Positions 2,997-22,113 are shown, counted from the first letter of the stretch. The stretch is 22,775 nucleotides of DNA from a virus (IMGVR_UViG_3300030060_006292:1-22775); one strand, 5' to 3'. The notes: generated by a model from the letters alone, not told the origin. A program made the numbers and translations.

Positions 2997-3025
2997 ATAA
3001 TAGCATCAAGGTAATACCTTGTCAA
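2997..3025 (-). promoter_or_regulatory. Leftward sigma70-like promoter with 15-bp palindromic operator
   Basis: On the minus strand TTGACA (3025-3020) and TATTAT (3002-2997) are separated by exactly 17 bp. The perfect palindrome CAAGGTAWTACCTTG occupies 3007-3021, overlapping the end of the -35 box and most of the spacer. A protein bound there would block RNA polymerase. It drives the 71-aa gene. Confidence 0.8.
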
Positions 3026-3050
3026 CAAAATAATTAATTTATTTTAAAAG

Positions 3051-3078
3051 AAAACAAAAAGACCGCTTGAAGGCGGCC
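3051..3078 (-). terminator. Hairpin terminator of the leftward 103-aa gene
   Basis: On the minus strand a short GC stem (CCGC 3063-3066 with GCGG 3073-3076, extendable past one mismatch) is followed by TCTTTTTGTTTT. The upstream arm carries the same CAACAACCGGCCGCC sequence as the terminator at 2694-2721. Confidence 0.6.
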
Positions 3079-3099
3079 GGTTGTTGATTGTGATCTGGT

Positions 3100-3411
3100 T
3101 TAGAATACGAATGTATTCATGTCACCTTGAAGGTTATAGCCGCCGACTAATTTGATTGAAGAGTAAACCAGCGCGGTCTCTTTCATGAATACGTTATAAT
3201 CATCAACATGACAAGACTCGATACTCATTTCGCCTCTTCGGTTACAAAGAATGATGTAGTGACTATCCGCCTCTTGAAGCTCTAACCATTCACATGCGTC
3301 TTTGATTGCATTTTCAAGAGTCTTGCTTTTTCCGTATTCGCTCTTGCTTGTAGATGCGTAGAATGAGAAGTCATACTTGAAGGATTCTTTGAGTTCGATT
3401 GTGTTTTTCAT
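3100..3411 (-). CDS. Hypothetical protein (103 aa), leftward accessory gene
   Basis: No family is recognised. The sequence looks like a compact alpha/beta protein: a charged N-terminus (MKNTIELKESFKYDFSFYAS), a helix around TLENAIKDACEWLELQEA, a strand (HYIILCNRRGEM), and a C-terminal part rich in aromatic residues. There is no signal peptide or membrane segment. The start is fixed by AAAGGA in the same 32-nt leader as the 71-aa gene at 2747-2962, downstream of its own operator-bearing promoter (3446-3473) and ahead of its own hairpin (3051-3078). It therefore forms a second stand-alone leftward unit inserted between portal and protease genes. The regulatory signals make it very likely to be a true gene; the function is unknown. 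Confidence 0.72.
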   Translation of the reverse strand: MKNTIELKESFKYDFSFYASTSKSEYGKSKTLENAIKDACEWLELQEADSHYIILCNRRGEMSIESCHVDDYNVFMKETALVYSSIKLVGGYNLQGDMNTFVF

Positions 3412-3440
3412 TTTGTTTTCCTTTGTTTGTTGTTGTTATG
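3409..3440 (-). promoter_or_regulatory. Conserved CAA-repeat leader with AAAGGA ribosome site (second copy)
   Basis: This is an exact 32-nt copy of 2960-2991, covering the start codon, AAAGGA and the CAACAACAA stretch. The surrounding promoters differ in detail, so the leader is either under selection or recently duplicated with its cassette. Confidence 0.8.
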
Positions 3441-3445
3441 TTTTT

Positions 3446-3473
3446 ATTATATCATGGTATTACCTTGATGCAA
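3446..3473 (-). promoter_or_regulatory. Leftward sigma70-like promoter with operator (one mismatch)
   Basis: On the minus strand TTGCAT (3473-3468) and a perfect TATAAT (3451-3446) lie 16 bp apart. The spacer 3453-3467 is CAAGGTAATACCATG in sense orientation, the palindrome with one changed base. It drives the 103-aa gene. Confidence 0.72.
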
Positions 3474-3537
3474 GTATTATTTTAAAATATTTTTATTTAT
3501 CTGTTATATTGGCGATACAACTACATGAGAGACATAT

Positions 3538-3945
3538 ATGACATCTTTAATTATCGCGGCCGTTGTTGGTCTGGTTGTTGGTATCGGTGGCACCATTGGA
3601 ATTCAGCAAGCAACAAAACCCAAAGAAGAGACAAAGCCGCTGGTTGTTGCGGTCGGTGGTGACGAGGTCGCCAAAGGTCAAACAGAAGTTCAAAAGAAAT
3701 TGGTCGATCTCGATCTCTTGGTTGAGCCGTGTTCAAAGGAATTTATCAAGGATCAAAAAGACTCTCTTCTTTGCCGCGAGATGTTTTGCAGGATGCAACA
3801 ACGCGGCATCGATGCGCAGACGTCACAGACTGATTGCGAATCAATCAGCAATATCGCAAACACCAAAGCCATAAAGGACGCATGCAAGGATCTTGAGGGT
3901 GACGAGCTGACAGCATGCACCGAGCTATTTTTCCGCAGAAAGTAG
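3538..3945 (+). CDS. Small membrane-anchored cysteine-rich protein
   Basis: The 135-residue product has an N-terminal hydrophobic segment (residues 4-22, LIIAAVVGLVVGIGGTIGI) acting as a signal anchor or uncleaved signal, a short Lys/Pro linker, and a soluble domain with six cysteines (65, 79, 84, 100, 116, 127). An even number of cysteines spaced this way suggests a disulfide-bonded domain exported to the periplasm or cell surface. No holin, spanin or lysozyme signature is present. GAGAG precedes the ATG by about 7 nt. It lies between the leftward cassettes and the prohead protease, in a position where most HK97-like phages have no gene. Plausible roles are superinfection exclusion or an envelope function, but this is inference from topology only. 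Confidence 0.65.
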   Translation: MTSLIIAAVVGLVVGIGGTIGIQQATKPKEETKPLVVAVGGDEVAKGQTEVQKKLVDLDLLVEPCSKEFIKDQKDSLLCREMFCRMQQRGIDAQTSQTDCESISNIANTKAIKDACKDLEGDELTACTELFFRRK

Positions 3946-3985
3946 ATTCTTATAATTCTTGTTATTGTTGTATAGGTTATTATTA

Positions 3986-4016
3986 TTGCAATTCTTAAAA
4001 AATAACTGTATATAAT
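3986..4016 (+). promoter_or_regulatory. Possible promoter ahead of the prohead protease gene
   Basis: TTGCAA (3986-3991) and a perfect TATAAT (4011-4016) lie in an AT-rich gap, separated by 19 bp, longer than ideal. It could restart head-gene transcription after the leftward cassettes. No operator palindrome is present here. Confidence 0.4.
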
Positions 4017-4032
4017 AACTAGTGGAGTAGGT

Positions 4033-4809
4033 ATGCGGTACAGATCCCTAAATGCTGAAATAGTTAAAACAAAAGAGAAGAGCGCGCGGCCGGTCGTCTC
4101 TTTTGTAGCCAGTACGGCAAACCCTGATCGTTATGGTGATGTAATCAATCAAGCTGGTTGGTCATTAGCCAAATACCGAAAGAATCCCGTCATTCTACTC
4201 AATCACAACGCTAACCAGCTTCCAATTGGACGCGGTGAGGTTGATGTAATTGATGGTCAATTAATGGTTGATATTGAATTTGATATGGATGATCCGATTG
4301 CAGCTGAGGTCGCACGCAAGACAAAAGATGGTTTTATGGGTGCCGTATCGGTTGGATTTAATGCGATCGATTCAACGCCTCGCTCTATGCTATCCAAAGA
4401 CAGTCCACATTACGGCAAACGCGGCGAGTACTTCGAGCGCGCCGAGCTACTGGAGATCTCTATTGTGACTATACCCGCAAATGGTGAGGCCGTTGCCGCC
4501 AAAAACTTTATCGGTCAAAATCGTACATTTAAACTTTCGCAACTTAAACACATCATCGATGTTGAGATGGATGGCGACAGAGTAATCGTGACGTATCTCA
4601 TGCACGAGGACGAACGCCGCGAAGAAGATCCAGAGATGCCCGAAGAGGAAGAAAGTCACTATGATGATGGCGAAGAGCATGACAAAGCCAAGATCGAAGA
4701 AGATCACGAAGAGATGGCGGCCGGTGAGGATGACGACAAGGACAAAGAAAAAAGTTTTTTAACACAAACCGAGCGCGACCTTTTTGCGCTCTTTACTAAT
4801 GGAGAGTAG
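4033..4809 (+). CDS. HK97-type prohead maturation protease (peptidase family U35/S78)
   Basis: This serine protease cleaves the scaffold-like N-terminal part of the capsid protein during prohead maturation and digests itself. The N-terminal half matches the family: VSFVASTANPDRYGDVI, then the catalytic His in ILLNHN (His58) and the catalytic Ser in GAVSVGF (Ser106), followed by ELLEISIVTIPANGEA near residues 137-152. The last 60 residues are extremely acidic and low in complexity, a common feature of proteases that double as internal scaffold. It starts at ATG 4033 with GGAG 5 nt upstream and lies directly before the major capsid gene, the canonical order. The family and both catalytic residues are seen in the sequence; the cleavage site in the capsid protein cannot be fixed here. 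Confidence 0.9.
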   Translation: MRYRSLNAEIVKTKEKSARPVVSFVASTANPDRYGDVINQAGWSLAKYRKNPVILLNHNANQLPIGRGEVDVIDGQLMVDIEFDMDDPIAAEVARKTKDGFMGAVSVGFNAIDSTPRSMLSKDSPHYGKRGEYFERAELLEISIVTIPANGEAVAAKNFIGQNRTFKLSQLKHIIDVEMDGDRVIVTYLMHEDERREEDPEMPEEEESHYDDGEEHDKAKIEEDHEEMAAGEDDDKDKEKSFLTQTERDLFALFTNGE

Positions 4810-4813
4810 CGAT

Positions 4814-6295
4814 ATGAGCAACGAAGATCGCGCTATGGTTGCCGAGGCTAAGAAAATCCTCGAGGGCATCCGTACACATCAAAAAAATTCTGACAACAAA
4901 TTGAGTCAGTTCGAAAAACAAGTCGATGACCTGAAGAAAGCCCAGCGCTTGATCCAAGAGTCGCAAACAGTCGTGCGCGATATGACGCATCTCAATCAAG
5001 ATGATCGCGAATTAAAAAGCTTCGTTGAGGCTGATGGCGTTCGATGGAATAGCAAGAGCGTTGACGTTGCCGTAACAGGTCGCGGCACTATCTCAACAAA
5101 GGTTGAGGGGCTTCTTGACTCAAAAGATCCCGTCAATGAGTGGCATGCGGATCTCATCAAAATGAATCGTGATCGTTCCTTTGCGCGCATGCTTATGAGT
5201 ACACCACACACACCAAAAAGTGACCTTGCTCTTTGGAAACACCTACAAAAAGCGCCTCGCTTCATGCGTTCAGCTATTCAGAAGGCTTTCAACGATAGCG
5301 CTGGAGCCGGTGCGGGGTGGATCCCTGACCAGTTTGCCAGTGAGCTTTATTATAACCTCGAGGATCAAATTCAATTACCTCGCGTTGTAGCTGACAACAT
5401 GCAGCGTCAACAAGTAGAGCGTAACACTATCCTAGTTCCTCGCATGTCTCGCGGTGGCCGTCCTTACATCAAAGGAAGTGTAACCAGCGACAACCCTGCG
5501 CAGTACACACCTTCAACGATTTCAACCTCTCAGAAGTCTATCACAATGACCGGCCTCGCGTCTCGTTACGTGATTGACGATCAAGCCGCTGAAGACAGCG
5601 CAGTATTGGCGATCCCAACTTTGCAACGTCAGATTGTTATGGACCTCAATGACGCGATGGAGGATGCACTAATCAATGGTGATTCAGCGGCCACACATCA
5701 AGATGACATCGCCAATTGGAACATCCGAGAGCGTTGGGGCACTTCTCCGGCTTTGGGTGGCTCTAGCGACCACAGACGAGCGTTTACCGGCCTACGTGCG
5801 GCGGCTGTTGATCGTGCATGCACCGATGATCATGGCGGCTCAGGATACAACTTCACCGACTTCTTAAGTGCAAAATCCAAACTGGGTGAGATCGGAATGA
5901 TGGATCTTGTTTGTATTGCATCTCCAGAAGCGATTATTGCAAACCTTCTTGGATTGTCTGAGGTCAAGACTTTGGATGTATTCGGGCCACAGGCCACCGT
6001 GCGCACCGGTCAACTCGGATCTCTTGCGGGCGTACCAATTATTATGTCTCGTTTTATGGGTGCCGATCTTGCCGCTACTGGTTTATACACCGGAGCAGGT
6101 GCGTTGACTGGGCTTCTCTTGGTTCATACAAACTCATGGCGCATCTTTGAACGTAGAGGGATCCTTGTTGAGTCCCAAAGAAAGATCGATGTCGGTGCAA
6201 CCGAGCTTGTAGCTACACGCAGAGCAACGCTTGATACTCTTGATTTGGACGCCACAAAGAACGTTTGTTATCAATTCAACATGCTCTCATCATAA
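4814..6295 (+). CDS. Major capsid protein, HK97 gp5 fold
   Basis: This forms the icosahedral shell. The N-terminal 60 or so residues are charged and helical (AKKILEGIRTHQKNSDNKLSQFEKQV), resembling the delta scaffold domain removed by the protease encoded just upstream. The HK97-type body follows: a GAGAGWIPDQFASELYYNL strand-helix, TILVPRMSRGGRPYI, SITMTGLASRYVIDDQAAED, a long spine helix with MDLNDAMEDALINGD, and a C-terminal RRGILVESQRKIDVGATELVATRRA. At 493 residues it is longer than HK97 gp5, leaving room for an inserted loop. The frame opens earlier, but ATG 4814 has GGAGAG at the right spacing and avoids overlap with the protease gene. Confidence in the fold is high from position and sequence pattern. 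Confidence 0.9.
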   Translation: MSNEDRAMVAEAKKILEGIRTHQKNSDNKLSQFEKQVDDLKKAQRLIQESQTVVRDMTHLNQDDRELKSFVEADGVRWNSKSVDVAVTGRGTISTKVEGLLDSKDPVNEWHADLIKMNRDRSFARMLMSTPHTPKSDLALWKHLQKAPRFMRSAIQKAFNDSAGAGAGWIPDQFASELYYNLEDQIQLPRVVADNMQRQQVERNTILVPRMSRGGRPYIKGSVTSDNPAQYTPSTISTSQKSITMTGLASRYVIDDQAAEDSAVLAIPTLQRQIVMDLNDAMEDALINGDSAATHQDDIANWNIRERWGTSPALGGSSDHRRAFTGLRAAAVDRACTDDHGGSGYNFTDFLSAKSKLGEIGMMDLVCIASPEAIIANLLGLSEVKTLDVFGPQATVRTGQLGSLAGVPIIMSRFMGADLAATGLYTGAGALTGLLLVHTNSWRIFERRGILVESQRKIDVGATELVATRRATLDTLDLDATKNVCYQFNMLSS

Positions 6296-6308
6296 TAGGA
6301 GATTGAAA

Positions 6309-6680
6309 ATGGAAATTTGTATACCTTACCACTTAGAAGTAGCTGCCGCCGGTAGTGATGCCGAGTATGTACCGCTCTATCGCAAGCTAACATTAAAGCA
6401 TGCTAAGATTGTCGCAAATAAAGCGCTGACTGCACATGATACCAACTATTACACCTTTACTCTGGTTAATGGTTCTACTACTCTTGCATCCAGAAAAACA
6501 CAGGTTGCAGACGGTAGTATGGCAGAGGGTGTGTCAGAGTCTATGACTTTGAGCGGTGGCGAAGGTCTTGACTTTTCCGATCTAGGGGAACTCAAGATTA
6601 ATTGTGCAGCTAGCGGATCATCTAGTGAGCCGGTTGACCTGACCTTTTTGTTTGTATTTGAGCCAAGAAGAGAATCCTAG
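6309..6680 (+). CDS. Probable capsid decoration or head accessory protein (123 aa)
   Basis: The start is ATG 6309, preceded by TAGGAG; the frame extends further upstream only inside the capsid gene. The product (MEICIPYHLEVAAAG...) appears rich in beta strands and has a Ser/Gly-rich C-terminal half (GGEGLDFSDLGELKINCAASGSSSEP). No named family is recognised. Its position immediately after the major capsid gene, high-yield ribosome site and small beta-rich character are those of capsid-stabilising decoration proteins such as lambda gpD, but there is no direct sequence match that I can see. It could instead be a minor head protein. Confidence 0.5.
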   Translation: MEICIPYHLEVAAAGSDAEYVPLYRKLTLKHAKIVANKALTAHDTNYYTFTLVNGSTTLASRKTQVADGSMAEGVSESMTLSGGEGLDFSDLGELKINCAASGSSSEPVDLTFLFVFEPRRES

Positions 6681-6683
6681 TCA

Positions 6684-7292
6684 ATGGCAATGGTAAGCGC
6701 CGCAACGCTAAAAACATATCTTCCAGAGGTTACGGGATCCGGTGCTGACACCGATCTTTCTAACCTCTTGGAGCGTGTTGAATGTGCGATCGCTCGATAC
6801 TTTGGCTGGGTCAAACCAGACGCATCGGCCGATCCGCAGTTGCTTGCGGCGACTTACACTTTTTATTTAAATGGCCCGACTTTCGGCAATCACGCAGTTT
6901 TGCAATTGCCGATACAGCCAACAAACTCAATTACCTCTATCCATAGCGATGTAAATCGACAATATACGGCCGATACACAGCTTGATAGTGGTGATTATGA
7001 TCTGGATGGTTTGCTTGGTCAAGCCATACTGGATCCCGTTAATGCAAACGATGGTTTTGATCGTGGTTTTCGTGCGATCAAAGTCGTTGCTAATTGCGGA
7101 TACACAGCACTTCCGGCAGATCTTGAGCATGCTGTTTGTGTGTGGGCGAGTCAGCTGCAACGCAACAAGGCGAGTCAAGGTAAAGACTCAATCACACAAA
7201 GAGCGGCAACGGTGAGCATATCACCGAAGAGTATGCCGCCGGAAGTTAAGCAGTTACTCGCGCCGTTTCGTGGCCCTTATCGTATAATGTGA
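6684..7292 (+). CDS. Head-tail connector (HK97 gp6 / SPP1 gp15-like adaptor)
   Basis: Connector proteins bind under the portal ring after packaging and join head to tail. The N-terminus (AATLKTYLPEVTGSGADTDLSNLLERVECAIARYFG) has the typical helical start of gp6-like connectors, followed by a beta portion (LPIQPTNSITSIHSD...YDLDGLLGQAIL) and a helix with LEHAVCVWASQLQRNKAS, as in the family. At 202 residues it is longer than HK97 gp6 but within the range for this group. It follows the capsid module and precedes a gp10-like gene, the canonical order. The start could also be ATG 6690; no strong ribosome site precedes either. Confidence 0.75.
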   Translation: MAMVSAATLKTYLPEVTGSGADTDLSNLLERVECAIARYFGWVKPDASADPQLLAATYTFYLNGPTFGNHAVLQLPIQPTNSITSIHSDVNRQYTADTQLDSGDYDLDGLLGQAILDPVNANDGFDRGFRAIKVVANCGYTALPADLEHAVCVWASQLQRNKASQGKDSITQRAATVSISPKSMPPEVKQLLAPFRGPYRIM

Positions 7293-7301
7293 GGGTGTGA
7301 G

Positions 7302-7694
7302 ATGGCTGGACAATTGACATTTGATGATTTTATTAAGCGCATAGACAAAGCCGATAACCGGCTTTTAAAGACGCTCAGAAAGAAGCTAACGATTATTGCG
7401 TTAAAGTCTGAGAGAGAAGCAAAGAAAAACGCGACCGATTACCCGAAAGTGCGCACCGGTCGCCTGCGTTCTTCGATTACTGGCATCGTTGATGCCAAAG
7501 ACGGCAACCCGCGCGCCGTTCTTCGTGCCGGTGGCAATAGTGGCGGTGTTCCGGTTCTCTATGCGAAATATGTAGAGTTTGGCACGCGCAAGATGGCGCC
7601 CAGGCTCTTTATGAAAAGAGGTATCGAGACCGCACTAAAAGACGCAGATAAAGAGCTTAGAAACCTTCTGTCGTTATCGTTACAGGTGCAATAG
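7302..7694 (+). CDS. HK97 gp10-like head-tail joining (neck) protein
   Basis: The 130-residue protein matches the HK97-gp10_like pattern: an N-terminal helix (FDDFIKRIDKADNRLLKTLRK), a second helix with SEREAKKNATDYP, the diagnostic VRTGRLRSSI turn, a strand ending in YAKYVEFGTRKMAPRLFMKRGIE, and a C-terminal helix. Members are needed to attach tail to filled head, probably at the head-tail interface. GAGGG lies upstream of ATG 7302, and its stop codon overlaps by one base with the GTG start of the next gene (TAGTG), indicating translational coupling. Confidence 0.85.
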   Translation: MAGQLTFDDFIKRIDKADNRLLKTLRKKLTIIALKSEREAKKNATDYPKVRTGRLRSSITGIVDAKDGNPRAVLRAGGNSGGVPVLYAKYVEFGTRKMAPRLFMKRGIETALKDADKELRNLLSLSLQVQ

Positions 7695-8146
7695 TGGCAG
7701 ACTCTAAAATAAGACAGATTGCCGATGCGATAAAAAGCAAAGTTGCGGTTAGTTACGCAGGCGAGACCAGTGAGATCGATCTAAGCAATCGCGTTGTGAT
7801 GGGTGCGATTATTGAGCCGCCATATCTCCCCTATGGATGCGTTGTATTTTTACAAAGCACCTCAGATTATGGTCAGACGATGGGAAGATATCGCATCACT
7901 GCAAACTTTGAGGTTTATGGTTTTGTCGGTGGTGCAAACGTATCGGAGCGAACATTAAACGCGATGGATCTTGCAAGCGATATGATTAAGGCACTTACGG
8001 CCGATCGTCAGCTCGGCATCCCTTCGATCGTTGATGACATAAAATGCGCCTTTACCGCCGAAGATGGTGATCGATATGGTATAGAGGGCACCGGTATCGG
8101 TTATATACAAATAGAGGTATTTTATCAAACGGATACAGGATCATGA
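7694..8146 (+). CDS. Probable tail terminator / tail completion protein
   Basis: The start is GTG 7694 overlapping the preceding stop, with AGGTG about 6 nt upstream. The 150-residue product has an N-terminal helix (IRQIADAIKSKV), a beta sheet (GAIIEPPYLPYGCVVFLQS, GRYRITANFEVYGFVGG), and a helix with RTLNAMDLASDMIKALTADRQL, the alpha-beta layout of the gpU/gp17-type tail terminators encoded just after the gp10-like gene. These cap the tail tube and provide the joining surface to the head. The assignment depends on gene position plus fold pattern. The end overlaps the next gene by ATGA. Confidence 0.6.
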   Translation: MADSKIRQIADAIKSKVAVSYAGETSEIDLSNRVVMGAIIEPPYLPYGCVVFLQSTSDYGQTMGRYRITANFEVYGFVGGANVSERTLNAMDLASDMIKALTADRQLGIPSIVDDIKCAFTAEDGDRYGIEGTGIGYIQIEVFYQTDTGS

Positions 8147-8901
8147 CGTGGTATGATGCAAATTACAAACAACGGCAACCGGTGGCGATTGATGCGCTCA
8201 CCGGTGACGGATCCCAACAAAACAAGGATGTGCAACTGACCATCCCGAAAACATGGGATATTTTTTGGGATAATATACAAAGCAACCTTTATGATGTTGT
8301 ACCGGTGTCAAATGACGGTACTCTTTTGACTTTTGAGAGAACAACCGAAAACCATGCAACAAGAACTCTCGTGATTACATTGGATAATCACAGTGTAAAA
8401 ACGCAAGCGATCAACTTTATATATCTGTATTTCCAAAACCCAGATCAGTCGAGCGATCCCGCTACACCGTTTACGCCGAGTTCGCCGATCAATGCTTACA
8501 TAGACATATCACAGGCCGGCGGCTTTATTGTGCGACAACCTCTCAATAGACCGGCAACCGCCGAGCCTCTTCAAGCCATCGTTAAAGCCTCTACAGATAT
8601 CATCGATGTTTATTTTGCGATATCTGGATTGTTTCGATCGATGCTTTCACCATACGCGCAACGCGTTGATTTTGAGGGCGTAAATTACGTTAATATATAC
8701 AGCCTCAATAGTAGCGGCACCAATGACACCGGACGTTATGAAGAGGCCGACACACGCTTTATTAGTGGCTTTGTAAGAGCAAGAGCCAAAGGCGGGTCGG
8801 ATAGTACAGATTACGCTTTGGTGTGTCGTGTAGTCACTAGCACAGAGCAACAAATTGATATAAGATGTTTAGTACAGGTACGGGATCAGCTTCCGACCTA
8901 A
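8143..8901 (+). CDS. DUF2341-like beta-sandwich protein in the tail module
   Basis: It overlaps the tail terminator gene by ATGA, so it is coupled to it. The N-terminal half (residues 1-105) follows the pattern of DUF2341 domains: WYDANYKQRQPVAID at the start, a D/V-rich strand, NDGTLLTFERTTEN, and IYLYFQNPD corresponding to the family's IYLYYGNP. DUF2341 domains are found in secreted bacterial and archaeal proteins, often next to lectin-like beta-sandwich domains. The second half (residues 140-250) also looks beta-rich. A gene of this type between tail terminator and tail tube genes is unusual; it may decorate the tail or bind surface glycans. Evidence is by pattern only. Confidence 0.45.
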   Translation: MTWYDANYKQRQPVAIDALTGDGSQQNKDVQLTIPKTWDIFWDNIQSNLYDVVPVSNDGTLLTFERTTENHATRTLVITLDNHSVKTQAINFIYLYFQNPDQSSDPATPFTPSSPINAYIDISQAGGFIVRQPLNRPATAEPLQAIVKASTDIIDVYFAISGLFRSMLSPYAQRVDFEGVNYVNIYSLNSSGTNDTGRYEEADTRFISGFVRARAKGGSDSTDYALVCRVVTSTEQQIDIRCLVQVRDQLPT

Positions 8902-8912
8902 GGAGTTTTTAA

Positions 8913-9854
8913 ATGGCTTTGGTTTTTGGTAGAACGGCGTATATCGCGCTTAATGAAGAAAGCACATACGGCACCGCAAATGGGTCGCCGTTTGGCGTTA
9001 ATAATCGTGTCTTTTCGGTATCTATGGCGCGCAACCAAGAGAGGGAAAGAACAACGCATTTATCGCAGTCAAGCGCGGCTTTTGCGGTCAATACCTTTGA
9101 CGGCTTTGAGATTGCAGGCGGCACGATTGAGACACCGCTGACCTATAAGGGTCTTGGTTTGCTCCTTAAGGCGTCAATTGGATCAGTAGCAACAACCGGA
9201 TCCGGTCCATATACGCACACATTCAACCCATCGGCATCATTGCCGAGCCTAACGGTTGCAGTTCAACGCGGTACAGGCAAGAGTGAGCAGTTTGAGGGCT
9301 GTATGATTTCAACGATGACACTTTCCTGTGAGAGTGGCGAAGAGGGTCGGGCATCGTTTGAGGTTATTGCAGAGACAGCAACCGCACGCGCGGCGGCACT
9401 TGGCTCTCCCGGTTTTGGAGATGGCGCGCAGATCTTTCACTTTCAAGCGTCCACTCTTAGTTACAATAGTGCTACATACAAAATGCGATCTATGGAATTG
9501 ACACTCGATAACAAACTCGAGAGAATCAACTATCTTGGATCAAAGTTGACGTCAGAACCACAGATCAGCGATGTGAGAGAAGTGACATTGACGGCTACAT
9601 TCGATCTTGAGGATGCGGATCTATACAATGCGCAGCTCGCGGGTACGGCGTCAAATGTTGAGGTCTCATTTACGAATGGATCGGATAGCTTTAATGTTTT
9701 GTTACGTAATGCCGAGATAACCGAGTATAGTGACGATGTTAATAGTTTTGGGCGCGTAGAGCGCACAGTAACGTTTTTCGGTATCTCAGGGAGTTCGGAC
9801 GAGGCGCTAAGAATCGAGATGATAAACGATAACGCTAGTGCAGTAAGCAACTAG
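8913..9854 (+). CDS. Major tail tube protein
   Basis: Strong AAGGAG precedes ATG 8913. The product (313 aa) starts GRTAYIALNEESTYGTA, a typical opening of the phage tail tube family, and continues with FEIAGGTIETPLTYKGLGLLLK, GPYTHTFNPSASLPSLTVAVQRG, EGCMISTMTLSCESGEEG and repeated beta strands (MRSMELTLDNKLERI, VTLTATFDLEDADLYNAQL), all characteristic of this family. It builds the hexameric rings stacked into the non-contractile tail. Placement before the chaperone and tape measure genes supports the call. No sheath protein gene is present, consistent with a siphovirus. Confidence 0.87.
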   Translation: MALVFGRTAYIALNEESTYGTANGSPFGVNNRVFSVSMARNQERERTTHLSQSSAAFAVNTFDGFEIAGGTIETPLTYKGLGLLLKASIGSVATTGSGPYTHTFNPSASLPSLTVAVQRGTGKSEQFEGCMISTMTLSCESGEEGRASFEVIAETATARAAALGSPGFGDGAQIFHFQASTLSYNSATYKMRSMELTLDNKLERINYLGSKLTSEPQISDVREVTLTATFDLEDADLYNAQLAGTASNVEVSFTNGSDSFNVLLRNAEITEYSDDVNSFGRVERTVTFFGISGSSDEALRIEMINDNASAVSN

Positions 9855-9855
9855 T

Positions 9856-9876
9856 AACCAACAACCAACAACCAAC
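9856..9876 (+). repeat. Three tandem AACCAAC units
   Basis: Three perfect 7-bp copies of AACCAAC lie between the tail tube stop codon and the GAGG ribosome site of the chaperone gene. They resemble the CAA-rich unstructured leaders elsewhere in the window and may keep the ribosome site single-stranded. Confidence 0.75.
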
Positions 9877-15448: not shown

Positions 15449-15455
15449 GGTACCG

Positions 15456-16076: not shown

Positions 16077-16077
16077 G

Positions 16078-16434
16078 ATGGATCCAACAACGACACATGA
16101 GATATTTTTAAACCTAGCCACCAACAGCCCGTTTTTAGCGTTTGTTATGTACAACTGGTATAGCATGAGCAAACAAAACGAGGAATACAGAAAAGAAATG
16201 AAAGCCGATCGTGATGCGTATGAGGATAAGCGAGAAAAAGCAATTGAAGAGATACGAGGCAGGTATATAAAAGTGATTGACGATTTAAAAGAGGACAAAA
16301 AAGGCGGCATAGAGGATCGACTCGCAAGCATGGAAAAGGCGATCAAAAAACTCTTTGTGATGATCGACAAACTGAAAGAAGAGATCAACGATTTAAAAAT
16401 AAAAGAATCCGCGCGTGACTTGCGAGATCGGTGA
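16078..16434 (+). CDS. One-TM coiled-coil protein, BhlA/UviB-like holin candidate
   Basis: The 118-residue product has a moderately hydrophobic segment near residues 9-28 (IFLNLATNSPFLAFVMYNWY) followed by a long, highly charged helix (KQNEEYRKEMKADRDAYEDKREKAIEEIRGRY...) that looks like a continuous coiled coil with heptad character. The layout resembles BhlA/UviB-type bacteriocin holins, which are short, start with one membrane segment and continue with a charged helix. It begins one base after the stop of the L,D-transpeptidase-like gene, with AGAGG upstream, and is followed by a strong terminator. It could also be a spanin-like or tail-anchoring protein; sequence identity to a known holin was not testable. 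Confidence 0.55.
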   Translation: MDPTTTHEIFLNLATNSPFLAFVMYNWYSMSKQNEEYRKEMKADRDAYEDKREKAIEEIRGRYIKVIDDLKEDKKGGIEDRLASMEKAIKKLFVMIDKLKEEINDLKIKESARDLRDR

Positions 16435-16483
16435 TACAATAGAGTTTGCGGGGCTAATCGACCCGCGTGAGATATGTGAGGCG

Positions 16484-16513
16484 GCCCTATTGTGTAATGC
16501 AATAGGGCTTTTT
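16484..16513 (+). terminator. Strong rho-independent terminator after the lysis genes
   Basis: A perfect 9-bp stem GCCCTATTG/CAATAGGGC (16484-16492 with 16500-16508) with a 7-nt loop is followed by TTTTT. A smaller GC hairpin (CGGG/CCCG) lies just upstream near 16449-16465. This separates the tail-lysis block from the exonuclease-fibre block. Confidence 0.9.
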
Positions 16514-16533
16514 CGCAATTCAAGGAGCAATAT

Positions 16534-17169
16534 ATGAAATTTGTTATACTAGACACAGAAACGACCGGCCTGCGCTCGTATCATCATGAGATCGTAAGTT
16601 TTGCAGGTATCAAGGTAAATGCACAACTCCAAGAGATTGACAGGTTGGTGATAAAAATTAGACCGAAATACCCAGAAAGAGCAGACAAAGAAGCCATGAA
16701 AATCAACGGCTACTCTCCGGCACGGTGGGCGGGTGCGATGGATCCAGAGATTGCAGGCCCGAAGATAGCCGAATTTATGGCCGGATGTACGCCGGTCGCT
16801 CACAATTGGGCGTTTGATCGTGGTTTTATCTTGGCGCTCTTCAAGAGCATAAAAAGGCCGGATCTCCGTATCATGCGGCGCGGCATCGATACAATTGCGC
16901 TCTCTATTGCTGCTTTTGCACCGTATGGCGTTAAAAGCTATTCTCTTGATGCAATCGGCCAGCTTTTCGGATGGCCGAGACAGCTACACCGTGCCGAGGC
17001 GGATGCGGTGATGTGTCTCGCATTGTTTCGGACGATATACCCGACAAGCATAAAAACATCGATCAAGATACATGTATTGATGCTGTACGCCAAAGCGCGC
17101 GGCCTGATCAATCCTTTGGGTAGTGCGTTCGGCTTGATGGCCTCGTGGAGTCTGATATGTCAAATTTGA
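16534..17169 (+). CDS. DnaQ-like 3'-5' exonuclease (DEDDh family)
   Basis: All five signature residues are present: Asp7 and Glu9 in FVILDTETTG (ExoI), Asp95 in AHNWAFDRGF (ExoII), and His152 with Asp157 in HRAEADAVMC (ExoIII, DEDDh type). Such enzymes are metal-dependent 3'-5' DNA or RNA exonucleases, either proofreading subunits or free nucleases. This one has only the exonuclease domain plus about 40 residues, without a polymerase. AAGGAG lies upstream of ATG 16534, directly after a strong terminator, and no convincing promoter is visible in the short gap, so transcription likely reads through. Placement between lysis and fibre genes, away from replication genes, is odd. Family assignment is firm; substrate is unknown. 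Confidence 0.88.
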   Translation: MKFVILDTETTGLRSYHHEIVSFAGIKVNAQLQEIDRLVIKIRPKYPERADKEAMKINGYSPARWAGAMDPEIAGPKIAEFMAGCTPVAHNWAFDRGFILALFKSIKRPDLRIMRRGIDTIALSIAAFAPYGVKSYSLDAIGQLFGWPRQLHRAEADAVMCLALFRTIYPTSIKTSIKIHVLMLYAKARGLINPLGSAFGLMASWSLICQI

Positions 17170-17555
17170 ATCTTGCAGTTATGGCGAGCACCAACACCGC
17201 CACCGGTATCGGCACGGGCTACGATACAGCGAAAGCGGTCTCTTTAGAGCAGGATCTTTTTGCACGTAGTCAGATCAGCGTGCTTGCATCAATGCTTGAG
17301 GTGCAGTTTACAAATATATCAGGTGCAACCAAGATCAATTGCTGTCTGTCAAGAGATCCCGCCGGCGATGATTTTGTTTTAACGGACACACAAACCACCA
17401 TACAAACCGGCCTCACAACCGATTCAAAGGGGGCCGCATTGATTCGGCTTGATGTTGTTATTAAGGATTTGAACGACAACATTCTTTACTTGCATGTCAA
17501 GACTAATGCAGGTACATTAGATATAAATTCAGCCGGTCTAACGTTTAGGTATTGA
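17157..17555 (+). CDS. Small beta-rich structural protein (132 aa), fibre-associated
   Basis: The frame opens at GTG 17145, but ATG 17157 has GGAG (17147-17150) at 6-nt spacing and is the better start; it overlaps the exonuclease end by 13 nt. The product (SNLNLAVMASTNTATGIGTG...) has alternating polar and hydrophobic strands and Gly/Thr-rich turns (TDTQTTIQTGLTTDSKGAALIRL, AGTLDINSAGLTFRY), typical of small phage fibre or tip proteins. No named family is recognised. Adjacent genes encode another small beta protein and the tail fibre, so a receptor-binding or fibre accessory role is likely. Confidence 0.6.
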   Translation: MSNLNLAVMASTNTATGIGTGYDTAKAVSLEQDLFARSQISVLASMLEVQFTNISGATKINCCLSRDPAGDDFVLTDTQTTIQTGLTTDSKGAALIRLDVVIKDLNDNILYLHVKTNAGTLDINSAGLTFRY

Positions 17556-17562
17556 TCAAATT

Positions 17563-17850
17563 ATGGCTATTGCAAACGCATTTAATAGAGATGGTGGTAC
17601 CGGATCAGAATCAAGCGGATCCGGATTTGAGATTATACTCGAGGATCTGACGGCATCCGTCAACGGAGAGCGAACGCAATTTACTTGCTCGCAAAACTAT
17701 GACGCCAATAGTCTGATCGTTTACATCAACGGACTACGACAGCGACAAAATACGGTCGGTCAGGTTGGATTAAATCAATTTACACTCAGCCCCGCACCGG
17801 TATCCGGTGACATTCTTGAGGTTGAATACACGATCCAAACACAAAACTAA
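17563..17850 (+). CDS. Small tail-fibre-like module with NGL turn (95 aa)
   Basis: The protein has a Gly/Ser-rich N-terminal linker, then a compact beta domain: LTASVNGERTQFTCSQNYDANSLIVYINGLRQRQ...LNQFTLSPAPVSGDILEVEYTIQ. The order of strands with LxVYxNGLxQ and APxSGDxxxVxY is a recurrent module in phage tail fibres. The related VYVNGL sequence also occurs near the C-terminus of the fibre at 17864-19387. Only a weak AGG lies before ATG 17563, so translation is probably coupled to the upstream gene. Likely a fibre or tip subunit. Confidence 0.6.
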   Translation: MAIANAFNRDGGTGSESSGSGFEIILEDLTASVNGERTQFTCSQNYDANSLIVYINGLRQRQNTVGQVGLNQFTLSPAPVSGDILEVEYTIQTQN

Positions 17851-17863
17851 CGGAGGCCATAAC

Positions 17864-19387
17864 ATGGCAATTCAAATCAGAGGCGGTCAAATTAAATCCG
17901 CTACAATCACCGGCACGCAGCTTGCAACCGGATCCATAGACAACAGCAACCTATTCGCTTCAGCGGTCGTCAATGCGGCGGCTCTCGCGGCCGATTCGGT
18001 CGTATCGGCGAAAATCGCAGACGGGGCCATTGATAGCACCGCATACCTTGCAAATTCAGTCGTTACAGCGGCAAAGATCAACCTCACCGGATCGTTTGAT
18101 TTTTCAAGCGGTACCTTGAGAGCGAGCACACCGAGCGCAAACACAGACGTAGCCAATAAGGCATATGTCGACTCTATCCAGAGCGGAATTCATTGGAAAG
18201 AGAGCGTTATCTGTGCATCTACCGCAAATGTTGACCTCTCAAGCGCACCGGCCGCGATCGATGGTGTAACACTCTCTACAGATGATCGAGTATTGATTAA
18301 GTCTCAGACCACCGCAAGCGCTAACGGTATCTATGTTTTTGCTGGATCTGGATCTGCGATGTCACGCGCTACAGATGCCGACAGTGCGGCCGAATTGAAT
18401 GGTGCCGCTGTCTTTGTTCAACAAGGATCTACAAATTCGGATATGGGTTATATCCAGACCGCAGATATCACAAATCTTGGATCTGATACAATCACATTTA
18501 CCCAGTTTACCGGACTCGGACAGATTACGGCTGGTGACGGTCTCCAAAAAACTGCTAATACAATCTCGGTTGATCTTAGTGCGAACAGTGGTCTTCAGAT
18601 CTCCTCTGGAGAGCTTGAATTAAACGCGGGTCAAGGTGTTGAGCTTTCCGGTGGCGCTCTCAAAGCAAAGCTTGATGGATCAACGCTGGCTCTCTCTGCA
18701 TCTGGTCTTAAAGTTGGAACGATCACATCGTCCGAGATCGGTGCCAATGCGGTAACCGGTAGCGCCATCGCAGACGGCGCCGTTGGTGATTCTGCTATGT
18801 TAGCTGACTCGGTTGTTTCTTCGGCTAAAATTGCTTCAAATGCAATTACCGAGGCCAAAGTAGCGACAGGCGCGATCAGCCTTAATAAATTGGCTGCAAA
18901 CTCCGTTGACGCTAGTAAAATCGCAACAAGCGTTGCCGGTTCTGGTTTGAGCGGTGGCGGTGGATCTGCTCTTGCTGTTGATGTTGATGATAGTTCTATC
19001 GAGGTCGGTGGATCTGGTCTCAATATTAAAGCGAATGGTATCGCGGCGGCTATGTTGCAGAGTGCTTCCGTAGAGTCGGCCAAAGTGGCAGCAAACGCGA
19101 TCACAGTCGACAAAATCGGCGCTCGTTTTTATCAAGAGGGTTTTCAGGTCAGCGGATCAAGCACTTCCACTCTTGATCTTTCTCGCGCTGTGAATAGCGG
19201 ATTCTTTGCCGGTGTTCAAGTTTATGTTAACGGTCTGGCGATGCTCAATAACACCGCAACCGGCGACACACCAAGCAACAATTCTGATTTTGCTATCGCG
19301 AACAATGGAGCGGGATCAGTGGGGCGCGTTACATTCGGCGCGAATCTCGTAAATGGTGACGCTGTCGTCTGTGCTTATTTTACCTAG
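17864..19387 (+). CDS. Tail fibre protein with beta-repeat regions
   Basis: ATG 17864 is chosen over the earlier in-frame start at 17807 because CGGAGG lies 8 nt upstream and the earlier one overlaps the previous gene. The product (507 aa) has short repeats around ADSVVSAKIADGAI and ANAVTGSAIADGAV in two blocks (about residues 20-75 and 285-365), suggesting a triple-stranded beta fibre. Between them is a common fibre module: ANKAYVDSIQSGIHWKES, IDGVTLSTDDRVLIKSQTTAS, NGIYVFAGSGSAMSRATDAD, ending FTQFTGLGQITAGDGLQKTANTISV. The C-terminus contains VQVYVNGLAM and a final beta segment. It probably binds the host surface. A strong terminator follows. Confidence 0.82.
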   Translation: MAIQIRGGQIKSATITGTQLATGSIDNSNLFASAVVNAAALAADSVVSAKIADGAIDSTAYLANSVVTAAKINLTGSFDFSSGTLRASTPSANTDVANKAYVDSIQSGIHWKESVICASTANVDLSSAPAAIDGVTLSTDDRVLIKSQTTASANGIYVFAGSGSAMSRATDADSAAELNGAAVFVQQGSTNSDMGYIQTADITNLGSDTITFTQFTGLGQITAGDGLQKTANTISVDLSANSGLQISSGELELNAGQGVELSGGALKAKLDGSTLALSASGLKVGTITSSEIGANAVTGSAIADGAVGDSAMLADSVVSSAKIASNAITEAKVATGAISLNKLAANSVDASKIATSVAGSGLSGGGGSALAVDVDDSSIEVGGSGLNIKANGIAAAMLQSASVESAKVAANAITVDKIGARFYQEGFQVSGSSTSTLDLSRAVNSGFFAGVQVYVNGLAMLNNTATGDTPSNNSDFAIANNGAGSVGRVTFGANLVNGDAVVCAYFT

Positions 19388-19423
19388 TATCTGACATAAA
19401 AAACTTGCTCCTTGAGTTTTTGG

Positions 19424-19451
19424 CCCTGCCGTTATAACGGTGGGGTTTTTT
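19424..19451 (+). terminator. Rho-independent terminator ending the structural gene block
   Basis: CCC...CCGTTATAACGG...GGG forms a hairpin (centre near 19434; inner stem CCGTT/AACGG, outer CCC/GGG joined by two G-U pairs), followed by TTTTTTAT. It ends the fibre transcript before the early-type promoter at 19472. Confidence 0.82.
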
Positions 19452-19471
19452 ATGTTTTCTAAAGAAACTTG

Positions 19472-19500
19472 TTGACAAGGTAATACCTTGAAAGTATAAC
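19472..19500 (+). promoter_or_regulatory. Rightward sigma70-like promoter with perfect palindromic operator
   Basis: TTGACA (19472-19477) and TATAAC (19495-19500) lie 17 bp apart. The perfect 15-bp palindrome CAAGGTAATACCTTG fills 19476-19490, overlapping the -35 end and spacer. It drives the 105-aa gene and the replication initiator. Confidence 0.85.
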
Positions 19501-19531
19501 TAAAGAGAACAACAACAAAGGAGCATAAACA

Positions 19532-19849
19532 ATGTATTACATAAGAGTCAAGTATTACTTTCATCAAGGCACACACAACGCACCCAAAAGCGGCGCGCTT
19601 CGTATCGGCCTTAATGGTATCAAGGAGCTAACCACAGAGAAAAAGATTGGCGGCCGGTCTTGCCCGATCTACATGATGGAATCAAGACAAGAGGCGTTAC
19701 AGCAGATCGAACGGATTACGGGCGGCTCTTTGTACCAATACAGCAAAAGCACATATACAACTTATTCAGTCAATGAGCTTCGTTATGGTGAGTATAGTGA
19801 GCCAGAGTATACAATAATCAAAAAGACAACACAAAACAAAGGGGCATAA
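19532..19849 (+). CDS. Hypothetical protein (105 aa), first gene of the replication operon
   Basis: No family is recognised. The product is rich in Tyr and basic residues (MYYIRVKYYFHQGTHNAPKSG, LYQYSKSTYTTYSVNELRYGEY), with a probable helix at SRQEALQQIERI; it could be a small nucleic acid-associated or inhibitory protein. There is no membrane segment. The start is fixed by AAAGGAG in the common CAACAACAA leader, about 30 nt below the operator promoter at 19472-19500. It ends 3 nt before the replication initiator gene, with its own ribosome site (AAAGGGG) there for the next gene, so the two are co-transcribed. Confidence 0.7.
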   Translation: MYYIRVKYYFHQGTHNAPKSGALRIGLNGIKELTTEKKIGGRSCPIYMMESRQEALQQIERITGGSLYQYSKSTYTTYSVNELRYGEYSEPEYTIIKKTTQNKGA

Positions 19850-19852
19850 ACA

Positions 19853-20920
19853 ATGAGCAGCAATACAAAACCATTCACACAAATAAACCTCGAAGATCTT
19901 GCCGGCCTTCGAGGTTTGGGCGCATCTTCCATCCTGGTCTATATGGCTCTTCGCATTTATGGCGGAAAAGACAGCCGTGCATGGCCATCACAAGAGCGAA
20001 TCAGTAAAGATCTAAACATGCCAATTGGATCGGTTCGAAGAGCAATGGCACAGCTCAGAAAACAAGAGGCTATCATCAAGACCGATGCAAAAACAAAAAG
20101 CCCGACATATCAGATCCGAGATCTGAGTATCGCAGATATGCGATGTCAGAAAAAACCGGAGGATCTCAATTGTGAGATCCCAGTATCGCAGATACGAGAT
20201 GTCAATATCGCAGATACGAGATCTGAGGATCTCAGATCCGATCCCCTAATATATAAAGAATATATAAAAGAAAATATACATTTAATAAATAAAACGCATA
20301 GCACACCAAAACAGATCGATAGTACAGATAACAAAAAGAGGGAGTCTAGCGACTCGCTTGAGATGGACGAACTTGATCTCTTATTTGTAGAGCTTTGGAA
20401 TAAGCACAGTGTTACGCATGGTATGACAGCCAAGAGCGGCAACCCGATCCAAGACTGGAAACGGGTCAAGGAAAGAGTTGGAATTCATCAAGCAGAAAGA
20501 GGTCTTAAAACGCTTGATTTAAAAATGAGCGCATCCGGTCGGGCTTGGCAATCCTTCGCCGGTGGTCGCTGGGTTCTCAAATTAGAAGCATGGATCAAGA
20601 GAGAGGATGAGAAGCCGATCGATCGCCGTGATTCCAAATATTTATCCGGCTCGATAGAGGTTGACCGGCGCGATCTCAATAAACACCGGCAAGAGGCAAG
20701 AGAGGCCAAAGAGGCAAATGAAAGAGCGCAGGCTATCGCGCTAGAGTCGGACACCGCTTCGCGCGGGTTGTGGCGTGAGTTTCGGCTTAATAATCAAGAG
20801 TGGTCCGATCTTGTTGATGCGGTGCAAAAATGGAAGCAAACCTTTCTTACCGAAGAGCTGCGAAAGGAGATTGAGAACGATCCACACCTCGAAGATTTTG
20901 CAATGATAATAAATATTTGA
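19853..20920 (+). CDS. Winged-helix replication initiation protein candidate
   Basis: The 355-residue protein has an N-terminal winged-helix domain (residues about 18-95: SILVYMALRIYGG, WPSQERISKDLNMPIGSVRRAMAQLRKQEAI), as in phage replication initiators such as lambda O-type and DnaD-type organisers. Residues about 90-125 contain the protein repeat QIRDLSIADMR / QIRDVNIADTR, encoded by the DNA repeats of the putative origin. A low-complexity linker, a helical domain (LLFVELWNKHSVTHGMTAKS..WKRVKERVG; GRAWQSFAGGRWVLKLEAWIKRE), and a charged C-terminal helix follow; the WVLKLEAWI-type part resembles the C-terminal regions of helicase-loading phage proteins. GGGGC-containing ribosome site precedes ATG 19853. 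The initiator role is inferred from the fold plus embedded iterons. A transcription regulator is the alternative. Confidence 0.68.
   Translation: MSSNTKPFTQINLEDLAGLRGLGASSILVYMALRIYGGKDSRAWPSQERISKDLNMPIGSVRRAMAQLRKQEAIIKTDAKTKSPTYQIRDLSIADMRCQKKPEDLNCEIPVSQIRDVNIADTRSEDLRSDPLIYKEYIKENIHLINKTHSTPKQIDSTDNKKRESSDSLEMDELDLLFVELWNKHSVTHGMTAKSGNPIQDWKRVKERVGIHQAERGLKTLDLKMSASGRAWQSFAGGRWVLKLEAWIKREDEKPIDRRDSKYLSGSIEVDRRDLNKHRQEAREAKEANERAQAIALESDTASRGLWREFRLNNQEWSDLVDAVQKWKQTFLTEELRKEIENDPHLEDFAMIINI
20106..20296 (+). other. Putative origin of replication: iterons, palindromes and AT-rich tract inside the initiator gene
   Basis: TATCGCAGATACGAGAT occurs twice perfectly (20184-20200, 20206-20222) with variants at 20128 (TATCGCAGATATGCGAT) and 20108 (TATCAGATCCGAGAT). 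Two dyads lie among them: GGATCTCA/TGAGATCC (20161-20180) and GATCTGAG/CTCAGATC (20220-20238). Eight GATC sites fall within 20113-20243. An almost pure A/T stretch follows at 20246-20294, a candidate DNA unwinding element. The layout is that of lambda ori inside the O gene. Confidence 0.65.
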
Positions 20921-20939
20921 AAAAAGTTTTGTTATTTAC

Positions 20940-20968
20940 TTGACCAACGTAATACCTTGATATATATA
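20940..20968 (+). promoter_or_regulatory. Rightward sigma70-like promoter with operator (one mismatch)
   Basis: TTGACC (20940-20945) and TATATA (20963-20968) are 17 bp apart. The spacer holds CAACGTAATACCTTG (20945-20959), the operator with one changed base in the left arm. It drives the ArdC-like to ribbon-helix-helix operon. Confidence 0.78.
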
Positions 20969-21004
20969 TTAAGTACAACAACAAAACAACAAAGGAGCAA
21001 AACA

Positions 21005-21280
21005 ATGACACCAACAAACGCACTCACAGAAAGACAGTATCAAGGCGGCAACATCTTCACTCTTCTACAAACTGGATATGAAAATCAAATCTGGGCTACT
21101 TATCGCCAATGGAAGCAGCTCGGTAAGCAAGTACAAAAAGGTCAAAAGGGTGTGAGGCTTATCAAGATCGTTACAGTAGAGAATCTTAAAGCCGGCGAAA
21201 AAGTTACAAAGCAAGTGCCTCGAGGCTTTACGGTTTTTAATGTGGCGCAAGTCAAAGACATTGAAGAGAAAGCAGCATAG
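21005..21280 (+). CDS. Stand-alone ArdC N-terminal domain (DUF1738-like), putative antirestriction protein
   Basis: The start is ATG 21005, with AAAGGAG in the CAACAAAGGAG leader; the frame extends upstream only through the promoter. The 91-residue product matches the N-terminal domain of ArdC antirestriction proteins: YQGGNIFTLL, WATYRQWKQLGKQVQKGQKG, then GFTVFNVAQVKDIE at the C-terminus, corresponding to the family's fNvlLL, WlTfkQaxxlGgxVrkGekg and fNVfNveQ blocks. In ArdC proteins this part binds single-stranded DNA and a C-terminal metallopeptidase domain follows; here that domain is absent and the protein ends after the N-terminal block. Protection of incoming phage DNA is a possible role. 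A hairpin follows. Confidence 0.75.
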   Translation: MTPTNALTERQYQGGNIFTLLQTGYENQIWATYRQWKQLGKQVQKGQKGVRLIKIVTVENLKAGEKVTKQVPRGFTVFNVAQVKDIEEKAA

Positions 21281-21288
21281 AGACAACC

Positions 21289-21306
21289 GGCCGCCTTCGG
21301 GCGGTC
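21289..21306 (+). terminator. UUCG-loop hairpin after the ArdC-like gene (weak terminator or processing site)
   Basis: CCGCC-TTCG-GGCGG (21291-21304) forms a very stable hairpin with GG/TC closing pairs. It starts with the same ACAACCGGCCGCC module as the two leftward terminators, but only CATTT follows, so it may attenuate rather than end transcription. Confidence 0.5.
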
Positions 21307-21329
21307 ATTTACAACAAAGGAGCAAAACA

Positions 21330-21506
21330 ATGAGAGAATACAACCCACCGCTAGAGCAAAGAGCGCAGTATGCACGATGGCTTTTACATGTCGCGCTTGA
21401 TGTTCTTAATAGACTAGATGACTACAAAGATCCGAACAAAGCCAAAGCAAGCGCAATTCGTGCAATCGAGACAGCTATGAAAGAGTTAAAGGGAGCAAAA
21501 CAATGA
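21330..21506 (+). CDS. Small hypothetical protein (58 aa)
   Basis: The start at ATG 21330 is fixed by AAAGGAGCAAAACAATG; the open frame further upstream runs back into the ArdC-like gene. The product (MREYNPPLEQRAQYARWLLHVALDVLNRLDDYKDPNKAK...) appears as two amphipathic helices; no family is recognised. Its stop overlaps the next start (ATGA), with another GGAG ahead of that gene. Leader sequence and tight coupling support a true gene; a helical adaptor or small regulator is possible. Confidence 0.65.
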   Translation: MREYNPPLEQRAQYARWLLHVALDVLNRLDDYKDPNKAKASAIRAIETAMKELKGAKQ

Positions 21507-21760
21507 GAGTATATAATCTCGGAGATCGAGTGCTTGCAAAAACCGACATTATGCGGTGCAAGATTCTCGGAACGATACAACAAATACATAACGATAAAAT
21601 ACTGGTCGTTTTTGATCATGAAATTCGCGGCAAAGGTGAGGCTTGGGTCTCGCGTTCGCTGGTCTATCCATCTCAGACAGAAGAGCCGATCGAGGTTAAG
21701 AATCGCAAACTCAAACAACAAGCAAGAAAGGTTATAAATAACCTAGAGGTGATCAAATGA
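21503..21760 (+). CDS. Small SH3/KOW-like beta-barrel protein (85 aa)
   Basis: GGAGC lies upstream of ATG 21503, which overlaps the previous stop. The first 55 residues (VYNLGDRVLAKTD...ILGTIQQIHNDKILVVFDHEI...EAWVSRSLVYP) have the strand spacing of a Tudor/KOW/SH3-type small beta barrel: G-D-x-V start, GTIxxI, KxLVxFD, and a final strand. The C-terminal 30 residues are a basic helix. Such folds bind nucleic acid or peptides. The assignment is by pattern only. The gene ends with ATGA overlapping the 73-aa gene. Confidence 0.6.
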   Translation: MRVYNLGDRVLAKTDIMRCKILGTIQQIHNDKILVVFDHEIRGKGEAWVSRSLVYPSQTEEPIEVKNRKLKQQARKVINNLEVIK

Positions 21761-21978
21761 AAAAGAACTACAAAAACCGCGCGATGCGTACCGAAGCCAA
21801 TGAACCGATCCGACAGTCCAACTCTACCGGCAAGCCCGAAGAGAAGATCCGGATCTATCTTGGCGCGCCACATCGAGAGAAGGCCGAGCAAATTGCAAAA
21901 CGCCTTAACGTGTCCTTAGAGCAACTTATTGAGAGATATATTTGTCAAATGGTTGCAGATGGAAGATGGCCGCGATAG
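21757..21978 (+). CDS. Ribbon-helix-helix-like DNA-binding protein candidate
   Basis: The 73-residue product has a disordered basic N-terminus (MKKNYKNRAMRTEANEPIRQS) and then KIRIYLGAPHREKAEQIAKRLNVSLEQLIERYICQMV, which has the strand-helix-helix pattern of Arc/CopG proteins: a short strand RIYL, helix with EKAEQIAKRL, turn NVS, second helix EQLIERYI. Proteins of this fold bind DNA as dimers and often repress their own operon. It is the last gene of the operon driven by the operator promoter at 20940, so it could be the regulator of the shared operator, but no direct evidence links them. Start is in ATGA overlap. Confidence 0.5.
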   Translation: MKKNYKNRAMRTEANEPIRQSNSTGKPEEKIRIYLGAPHREKAEQIAKRLNVSLEQLIERYICQMVADGRWPR

Positions 21979-21983
21979 AATTA

Positions 21984-21998
21984 AAAGGATGATCCTTT
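21984..21998. repeat. 15-bp palindrome AAAGGATGATCCTTT
   Basis: This is a perfect dyad of 7-bp arms around one base, just after the stop codon of the ribbon-helix-helix gene. It is unlike the promoter operator in sequence and not near a promoter. It could be a protein site or an RNA hairpin. Confidence 0.45.
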
Positions 21999-22029
21999 CT
22001 GGGGATCGTTCCTTTGTAATTGTTGTTTA

Positions 22030-22070
22030 GAGCCGGTGTGTAATGACAAGCACCGGCTCTTTTCGTTTTT
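22030..22070 (+). terminator. Rho-independent terminator after the ribbon-helix-helix gene
   Basis: A perfect 9-bp stem GAGCCGGTG/CACCGGCTC (22030-22038 with 22051-22059), 12-nt loop, is followed by TTTTCGTTTTT. It ends the operon that starts at 20940. Confidence 0.88.
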
Positions 22071-22084
22071 CTGCAAAATAATCC

Positions 22085-22113
22085 TTGACCTTAAAGTATT
22101 ACCTTGATACAAT
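22085..22113 (+). promoter_or_regulatory. Rightward sigma70-like promoter with operator variant
   Basis: TTGACC (22085-22090) and TACAAT (22108-22113) are 17 bp apart. The spacer 22092-22106 is TAAAGTATTACCTTG, the operator with a perfect right arm and changes at the left end. It drives the 74-aa and SWIM-type genes. Confidence 0.75.

Follow-up and report, generated by a model that had tools for sequence, protein, structure and literature searches.

The 15-bp palindrome CAAGGTAWTACCTTG recurs in promoters of an uncultured phage (record IMGVR_UViG_3300030060_006292), which raises the question of which protein acts on it and with what effect. The reading favored here, to which we give a probability of about 0.76, is that the palindrome is the operator of K, a predicted ribbon-helix-helix (RHH, CopG/Arc-fold) protein that would serve as the autoregulated repressor of seven promoters.

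Genome record

The window, meaning the whole stretch of 22,775 nucleotides that was analysed, is part of a full virus record of 30,017 bases. The last 99 to 100 bases of the record repeat its first ones with one mismatch. This end overlap indicates that the genome is most likely circularly closed, at about 29.9 kb, apart from an assembly gap of ten Ns at 22776-22785. Head and tail genes occupy most of the genome outside the seven operator units. The 881-aa ORF at window positions 50-2695 is likely a fusion, with an N-terminal part that matches portal proteins and a C-terminal part that matches head morphogenesis proteins. Amid the late genes, at window positions 16534-17169, lies an ORF for a DNA polymerase exonuclease-subunit-like protein; no DNA polymerase gene was seen in this phage.

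Palindromes in core promoters

The window was scanned for CAAGGTAWTACCTTG with up to three mismatches allowed. Six matches were found, compared with an expectation of 0.37 from shuffled sequences, and none of 100 shuffles gave six. Five of the matches confirmed the coordinates given in a preliminary description of this DNA, each inside a core promoter. The sixth, at 22429, has three mismatches and is located within a gene; it is a chance match. The scan of the full record, which the preliminary description had proposed, gave two further sites beyond the window, and these are again promoter embedded. The phage has seven operator sites, every one in a core promoter, and the chance expectation for this is near zero. 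The promoters are as follows, with mismatches counted against CAAGGTAWTACCTTG.

2997-3025, minus strand: promoter 1, with TTGACA at 3025-3020, operator at 3007-3021 (CAAGGTATTACCTTG, no mismatch), TATTAT at 3002-2997 and a 17-bp spacer, driving the ORF at 2747-2962
3446-3473, minus strand: promoter 2, with TTGCAT, operator at 3453-3467 (CAAGGTAATACCATG, one mismatch), TATAAT and a 16-bp spacer, driving the ORF at 3100-3411
19472-19500, plus strand: promoter 3, with TTGACA, operator at 19476-19490 (CAAGGTAATACCTTG, no mismatch), TATAAC and a 17-bp spacer
20940-20970, plus strand: promoter 4, with TTGACC, operator at 20945-20959 (CAACGTAATACCTTG, one mismatch), TATATA or TATATT and a 17-bp spacer
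22085-22113, plus strand: promoter 5, with TTGACC, operator at 22092-22106 (TAAAGTATTACCTTG, two mismatches), TACAAT and a 17-bp spacer
26156-26170, beyond the window: operator ACCGGTATTACCTTG in TTGACA-17-TAGATT
29418-29432, beyond the window: operator CAACGTATTACCTTG in TTGACC-17-TATACT

The spacing of 16 to 17 bp described earlier holds for the five window promoters (17, 16, 17, 17 and 17 bp), but their boxes are not all well formed, as had been stated. The -35 box of promoter 2, TTGCAT, is poor, with only 3 of 6 consensus positions, and the -10 box of promoter 4 is ambiguous. Promoter 1 is the strongest sigma70-type match of the record (11/12). Counted from the first base of TTG in the -35 box, the palindrome starts 4 to 7 bases downstream. 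It therefore floats relative to this box, indicating an element separate from the promoter.

All seven operator promoters are followed by a CAA-rich leader, a Shine-Dalgarno-like AAGGA and an ATG. The leaders are at window positions 19509, 20975 and 22121 and, on the minus strand, 2987 and 3436, and at record positions 26186 and 29448. A similar CAA-repeat leader is kept in relatives with other operators.

Genes of the seven units

The extent of each unit was inferred from gene order, and the following genes were assigned.

2747-2962, minus strand: unit 1, 71-aa ORF, no family found
3100-3411, minus strand: unit 2, 103-aa ORF, no confident family
19532-19849, plus strand: unit 3, first ORF, 105 aa, no family found
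19853-20920, plus strand: unit 3, replication initiator-like protein (HTH_36; phrog_270)
21005-21280, plus strand: unit 4, first ORF, ArdC N-terminal-domain (anti-restriction-like) protein, with small ORFs in the same unit
22148-22372, 22369-22626 and about 22626-22766, plus strand: unit 5, the ORFs behind the 22092 operator, the last of them small, followed by K
26214-26480: ORF of the unit at 26156, with genes for a Dcm-like methyltransferase and another DNA methyltransferase behind it
29476-29727: ORF of the unit at 29418

These assignments support the earlier proposal of a phage regulon that shares one operator and includes the replication initiator operon, and they widen it from five units to seven. 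The ORF at 22369-22626 encodes a SWIM zinc-finger protein, which is conserved upstream of K in the relatives L079, G003, G004, G002 and L117/L121.

A candidate repressor in an operator-controlled operon

K is encoded in the operon of the 22092 operator promoter.

22759-22944 of the record (L005:760-945), plus strand: K, proposed RHH regulator, 61 aa; its first 17 bases (22759-22775) are inside the window

The preliminary description saw no obvious repressor in the window. This is true of the window itself, but the likely repressor begins there. K escaped notice because only its first 17 bases are within the window and the 10-N assembly gap interrupts its N-terminus.

K of this phage scored 25.5 bits against the Pfam RHH_1 profile (cut-off, 20.5). 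Its orthologues in L079, G003, L132 and G004 scored 44.2, 32.3, 21.0 and 20.6 bits, respectively; the K proteins of L117 and L134 were just under the cut-off, and that of L126 had no RHH_1 match. K also matches CopG-like phage repressors, and its identity to the nearest K, that of G003, is only 36 to 45%. A profile of 13 K proteins aligned with P22 Arc (KMPQFNLRWP) at an E value of 0.003, and in this alignment the K strand preceding an invariant proline corresponds to the DNA-contact strand of Arc. In Arc, residues Gln9, Asn11 and Arg13 contact DNA. The AF2 model of the G003 orthologue, a monomer, has helices at 31-44 and 48-60 and no strand; an RHH strand would pair only in a dimer. The top Foldseek neighbours of the orthologue model were RHH antitoxins, Arc and CopG. 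These matches were weak, none with an E value below 0.001, as is expected for a 61-residue monomer.

In the proposed mechanism, K would be made from its operator-controlled operon, in which the 22092 promoter is followed by three small ORFs and then K. As K accumulates, K dimers would occupy the two half-sites through antiparallel beta-strands, and bound K, in a dimer-of-dimers geometry, would occlude RNA polymerase at each of the seven promoters, among them that of its own operon. The early units, comprising the replication initiator, the ArdC-like protein, the methyltransferases and small ORFs, would be shut down or dampened in one step. Direct binding by K, this geometry and the early timing are what we infer; it is the position of the site, by itself, that points to repression rather than activation. 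A site between normally spaced -35 and -10 boxes, also at the repressor's own promoter, gives repression in acr-aca operons (PMC9410906), and the RHH regulators of archaeal viruses work by promoter occlusion (PMC5569661).

Strand and operator in related phages

Relatives were gathered through the capsid, H and terminase proteins, and K proteins were collected by profile. Promoters were listed by the leader or by a Shine-Dalgarno-plus-promoter pattern, independently of K. Twenty phages, this one included, carry K, and their K strands fall into five types, paired with operators as follows.

SIK strand: CAAGGTAWTACCTTG, class 1
NLV strand: CAWGTTAWTAACWTG, class 2
SVV strand: CAATATASTATATTG, class 3
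PVV strand: CATTATAWTATAATG, class 4
TTV strand: CATTCACATATAATG-like, class 5, a loose consensus

In 17 of the 20 phages, the operator of the phage's own type was at least as frequent as any other (counted at up to two mismatches; L131 ties). The exceptions were two overlaps between the SVV and PVV types and G001. The class 3 and class 4 counts overlap because the consensus sequences differ by two bases; in L123, for example, five class 3 and six class 4 matches were counted, the same sites being scored for both. In the list of exact palindromes, the SVV phages have CAATATASTATATTG and not the class 4 sequence. G001, of the NLV type, has four class 3-like sites versus two class 2 sites. The operator classes were named after inspection, so that the table documents a pattern rather than the outcome of a blind test, and several classes consist of few, related phages, so that it does not hold 20 independent observations. 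Relatedness accounts for part of the co-variation between strand and operator; a label permutation takes no account of it, and its value is therefore not read as a probability. A search for class 1 relatives among viral contigs through H, J and K gave one new locus only.

In G001 (L104/L105), several promoters carry a different palindrome, CAATATAATATGTTATTATATTG (23 bp), in addition to two class 2-like sites in that genome. This perhaps belongs to a second regulator or represents a longer site.

In the terminase tree, the phage L121 is placed among the SIK and NLV phages (starred support), and the other SVV phages are on the opposite side. Its K strand is identical to the SVV-type strands at 6 of 6 positions, versus 1 of 6 for its NLV relatives. 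Outside the strand, its K domain is equally close to SVV and NLV, and its promoters carry SVV-type operators. Two lineages that stand apart on this tree both have the SVV/CAATATA pairing.

Many early genes of the present phage are closest to those of G004 or G002 (NLV), including the upstream neighbour of K and the HTH protein O; identity to G002 is 78% for J2 and 43% for O. Its K, in contrast, is closest to those of G003 and L079, both of which share its operator. This contrast is suggestive only, because the terminase and gene N of this phage are also closest to those of G003.

We see an even chance that the repressor-operator pairs of these phages make up a natural series, with five specificities or more built on a single RHH scaffold; two or three residues of the strand would set the operator, and L121 would have switched strand type and operators together relative to its close relatives.

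Alternative explanations

Two other proteins of the phage were considered as the regulator.

21757-21978, plus strand: H, a small helical protein whose conservation in relatives does not depend on their operator
24378-24701 of the record: O, an HTH (Xre-like) protein

H is strongly conserved in close relatives (56 to 72%); YKNRAMR, near the N-terminus, is invariant, and the C-terminal part is helix-helix. That one of these two, rather than K, binds the operator is highly improbable, even though both are conserved and located in the same gene block, H has a helix-helix arrangement in its structure model and O has weak Xre-like matches. The product of 21757-21978 had been put forward as a candidate repressor in the preliminary description, but its putative DNA-contact strand hardly varies (KIRIYL or KIKIYL) among phages of three operator classes, and H had no RHH match in Pfam or PDB profiles. 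The recognition helix of O does not track the operator: it differs between G000 and G003, which have the same operator, and in G003 it resembles that of phages with other operators. It is also very unlikely that the palindrome is a part of an extended promoter for a phage-specific sigma factor or activator instead of a repressor site. Its constant position within the core promoter and the imperfect -35 or -10 boxes of several operator promoters would fit such a role, but it stands at distances from the -35 box that differ by 3 bases, the spacers are of normal length, and in several classes the operator is perfectly or almost perfectly palindromic. MerR-type activation, which involves spacers of 19 to 20 bp, was rejected in view of the 16- to 17-bp spacers.

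A host-encoded regulator, whose promoter-operator the phage would have borrowed, has very little probability. The same palindrome is promoter embedded in five unrelated phage contigs, as would fit a host site, but between relatives the operator changes with the phage protein K, and one class occurs in two separate lineages, which is hard to square with a host protein. The five contigs, otherwise different phages, carry the 15-mer at L041:2885, L060:6619, L071:6528, L085:2354 and L088:1556. In most of them it extends to a 19-bp palindrome, TTGACACCAAGGTAWTACCTTGGTAATAT, upstream of an ORF of about 252 aa. No RHH protein was recognisable in these contigs by Pfam, which counts against K as the regulator; a protein near the look-alike promoters, MSSRKTIYLTDDSE...SGRIN..., is RHH-like by eye and had no Pfam match. 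A search for a cultured phage with the L041 look-alike promoter gave nothing useful.

The remaining alternative is that K acts as a lysogeny or immunity repressor in a temperate phage, for example an extrachromosomal prophage, with the early promoters silent in the lysogen, as with SSV1 F55 or a cluster A mycobacteriophage. This is unlikely. Operators at many promoters, including that of the replication initiator, are in its favor, the repressor-operator co-variation is akin to immunity groups (PMC6550527), and F55 is an RHH regulator of lysogeny (PMC5569661). However, the testable feature of temperate immunity, a prophage inheritance function (integrase or partition protein), was not detected: profile searches of this circular genome and five relatives gave no tyrosine integrase (PF00589) or ParA-type (PF01656) match, these being the two profiles used, and no integration gene was found among the proteins scanned. 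A search of about 85,000 genomes of bacteria and archaea gave no match to H and, for the terminase, nothing beyond a partial match of 31% in a Flavobacteriales MAG. The only evident promoter of K is, moreover, itself operator controlled. A match of the capsid to one Microcystis phage, at 24.5% and covering half of its length, is too weak to use. The likeness to temperate phages drawn in the preliminary description was not borne out, given six records without a tyrosine integrase or ParA-type match and no close relative in these genomes. For the same reasons, the role of K as a repressor leans towards early shut-off rather than a carrier state.

Relation to known systems

The K system would work like Arc, CopG, F55, SvtR and Aca, and by the tests made its membership is in the RHH family only. 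As with P22 Arc and CopG, K is a small RHH protein with a strand aligned by profile to the DNA-contact strand of Arc, and autoregulation from a promoter-embedded site is predicted. Unlike in those systems, seven candidate sites are spread around the genome, and the proteins have little sequence identity; nor did this phage show a P22-type immunity region. SSV1 F55 and SIRV1 SvtR (PMC5569661) are likewise virus-encoded RHH proteins acting at several viral promoters plus their own, as predicted for K, but at archaeal promoters in archaeal hosts. F55 also differs in using tandem repeats and in maintaining lysogeny, which is unsupported in this phage.

With the Aca repressors (PMC9410906), K shares an inverted repeat in the core promoter of its own operon (the operator at 22092), a candidate repressor gene within the controlled operon, and a regulon that includes genes of the counter-defence type (ArdC-N, methyltransferases). 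The Aca families are HTH proteins, whereas K is RHH; no acr gene is known in this phage, and one protein would serve seven units. With its different fold, K is not an Aca. The stoperators of cluster A mycobacteriophages (PMC6550527) are similar in their many sites per genome and in the joint divergence of motif and repressor between phages. Those sites, however, are asymmetric and mostly outside promoters, with an HTH-type repressor and in temperate phages. Here, the seven sites are without exception palindromes within promoters, and the stoperator arrangement, outside promoters and oriented with transcription, was not found.

A likely regulator, its operator and its regulon can now be named for a group of uncultured phages in which the analysis found no close relative in culture. 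A motif left unexplained by the preliminary description becomes a testable protein-operator pair. In these phages, early genes and counter-defence genes may be predicted from the operator, much as a shared regulatory sequence served for prediction in archaeal viruses (PMC11065993). With five matched strand and operator types, the DNA specificity of RHH proteins could be tested by small strand swaps. If true, the specificity series would constitute a readable RHH recognition code and would delimit groups of regulatory incompatibility among phages that show no evident lysogeny.
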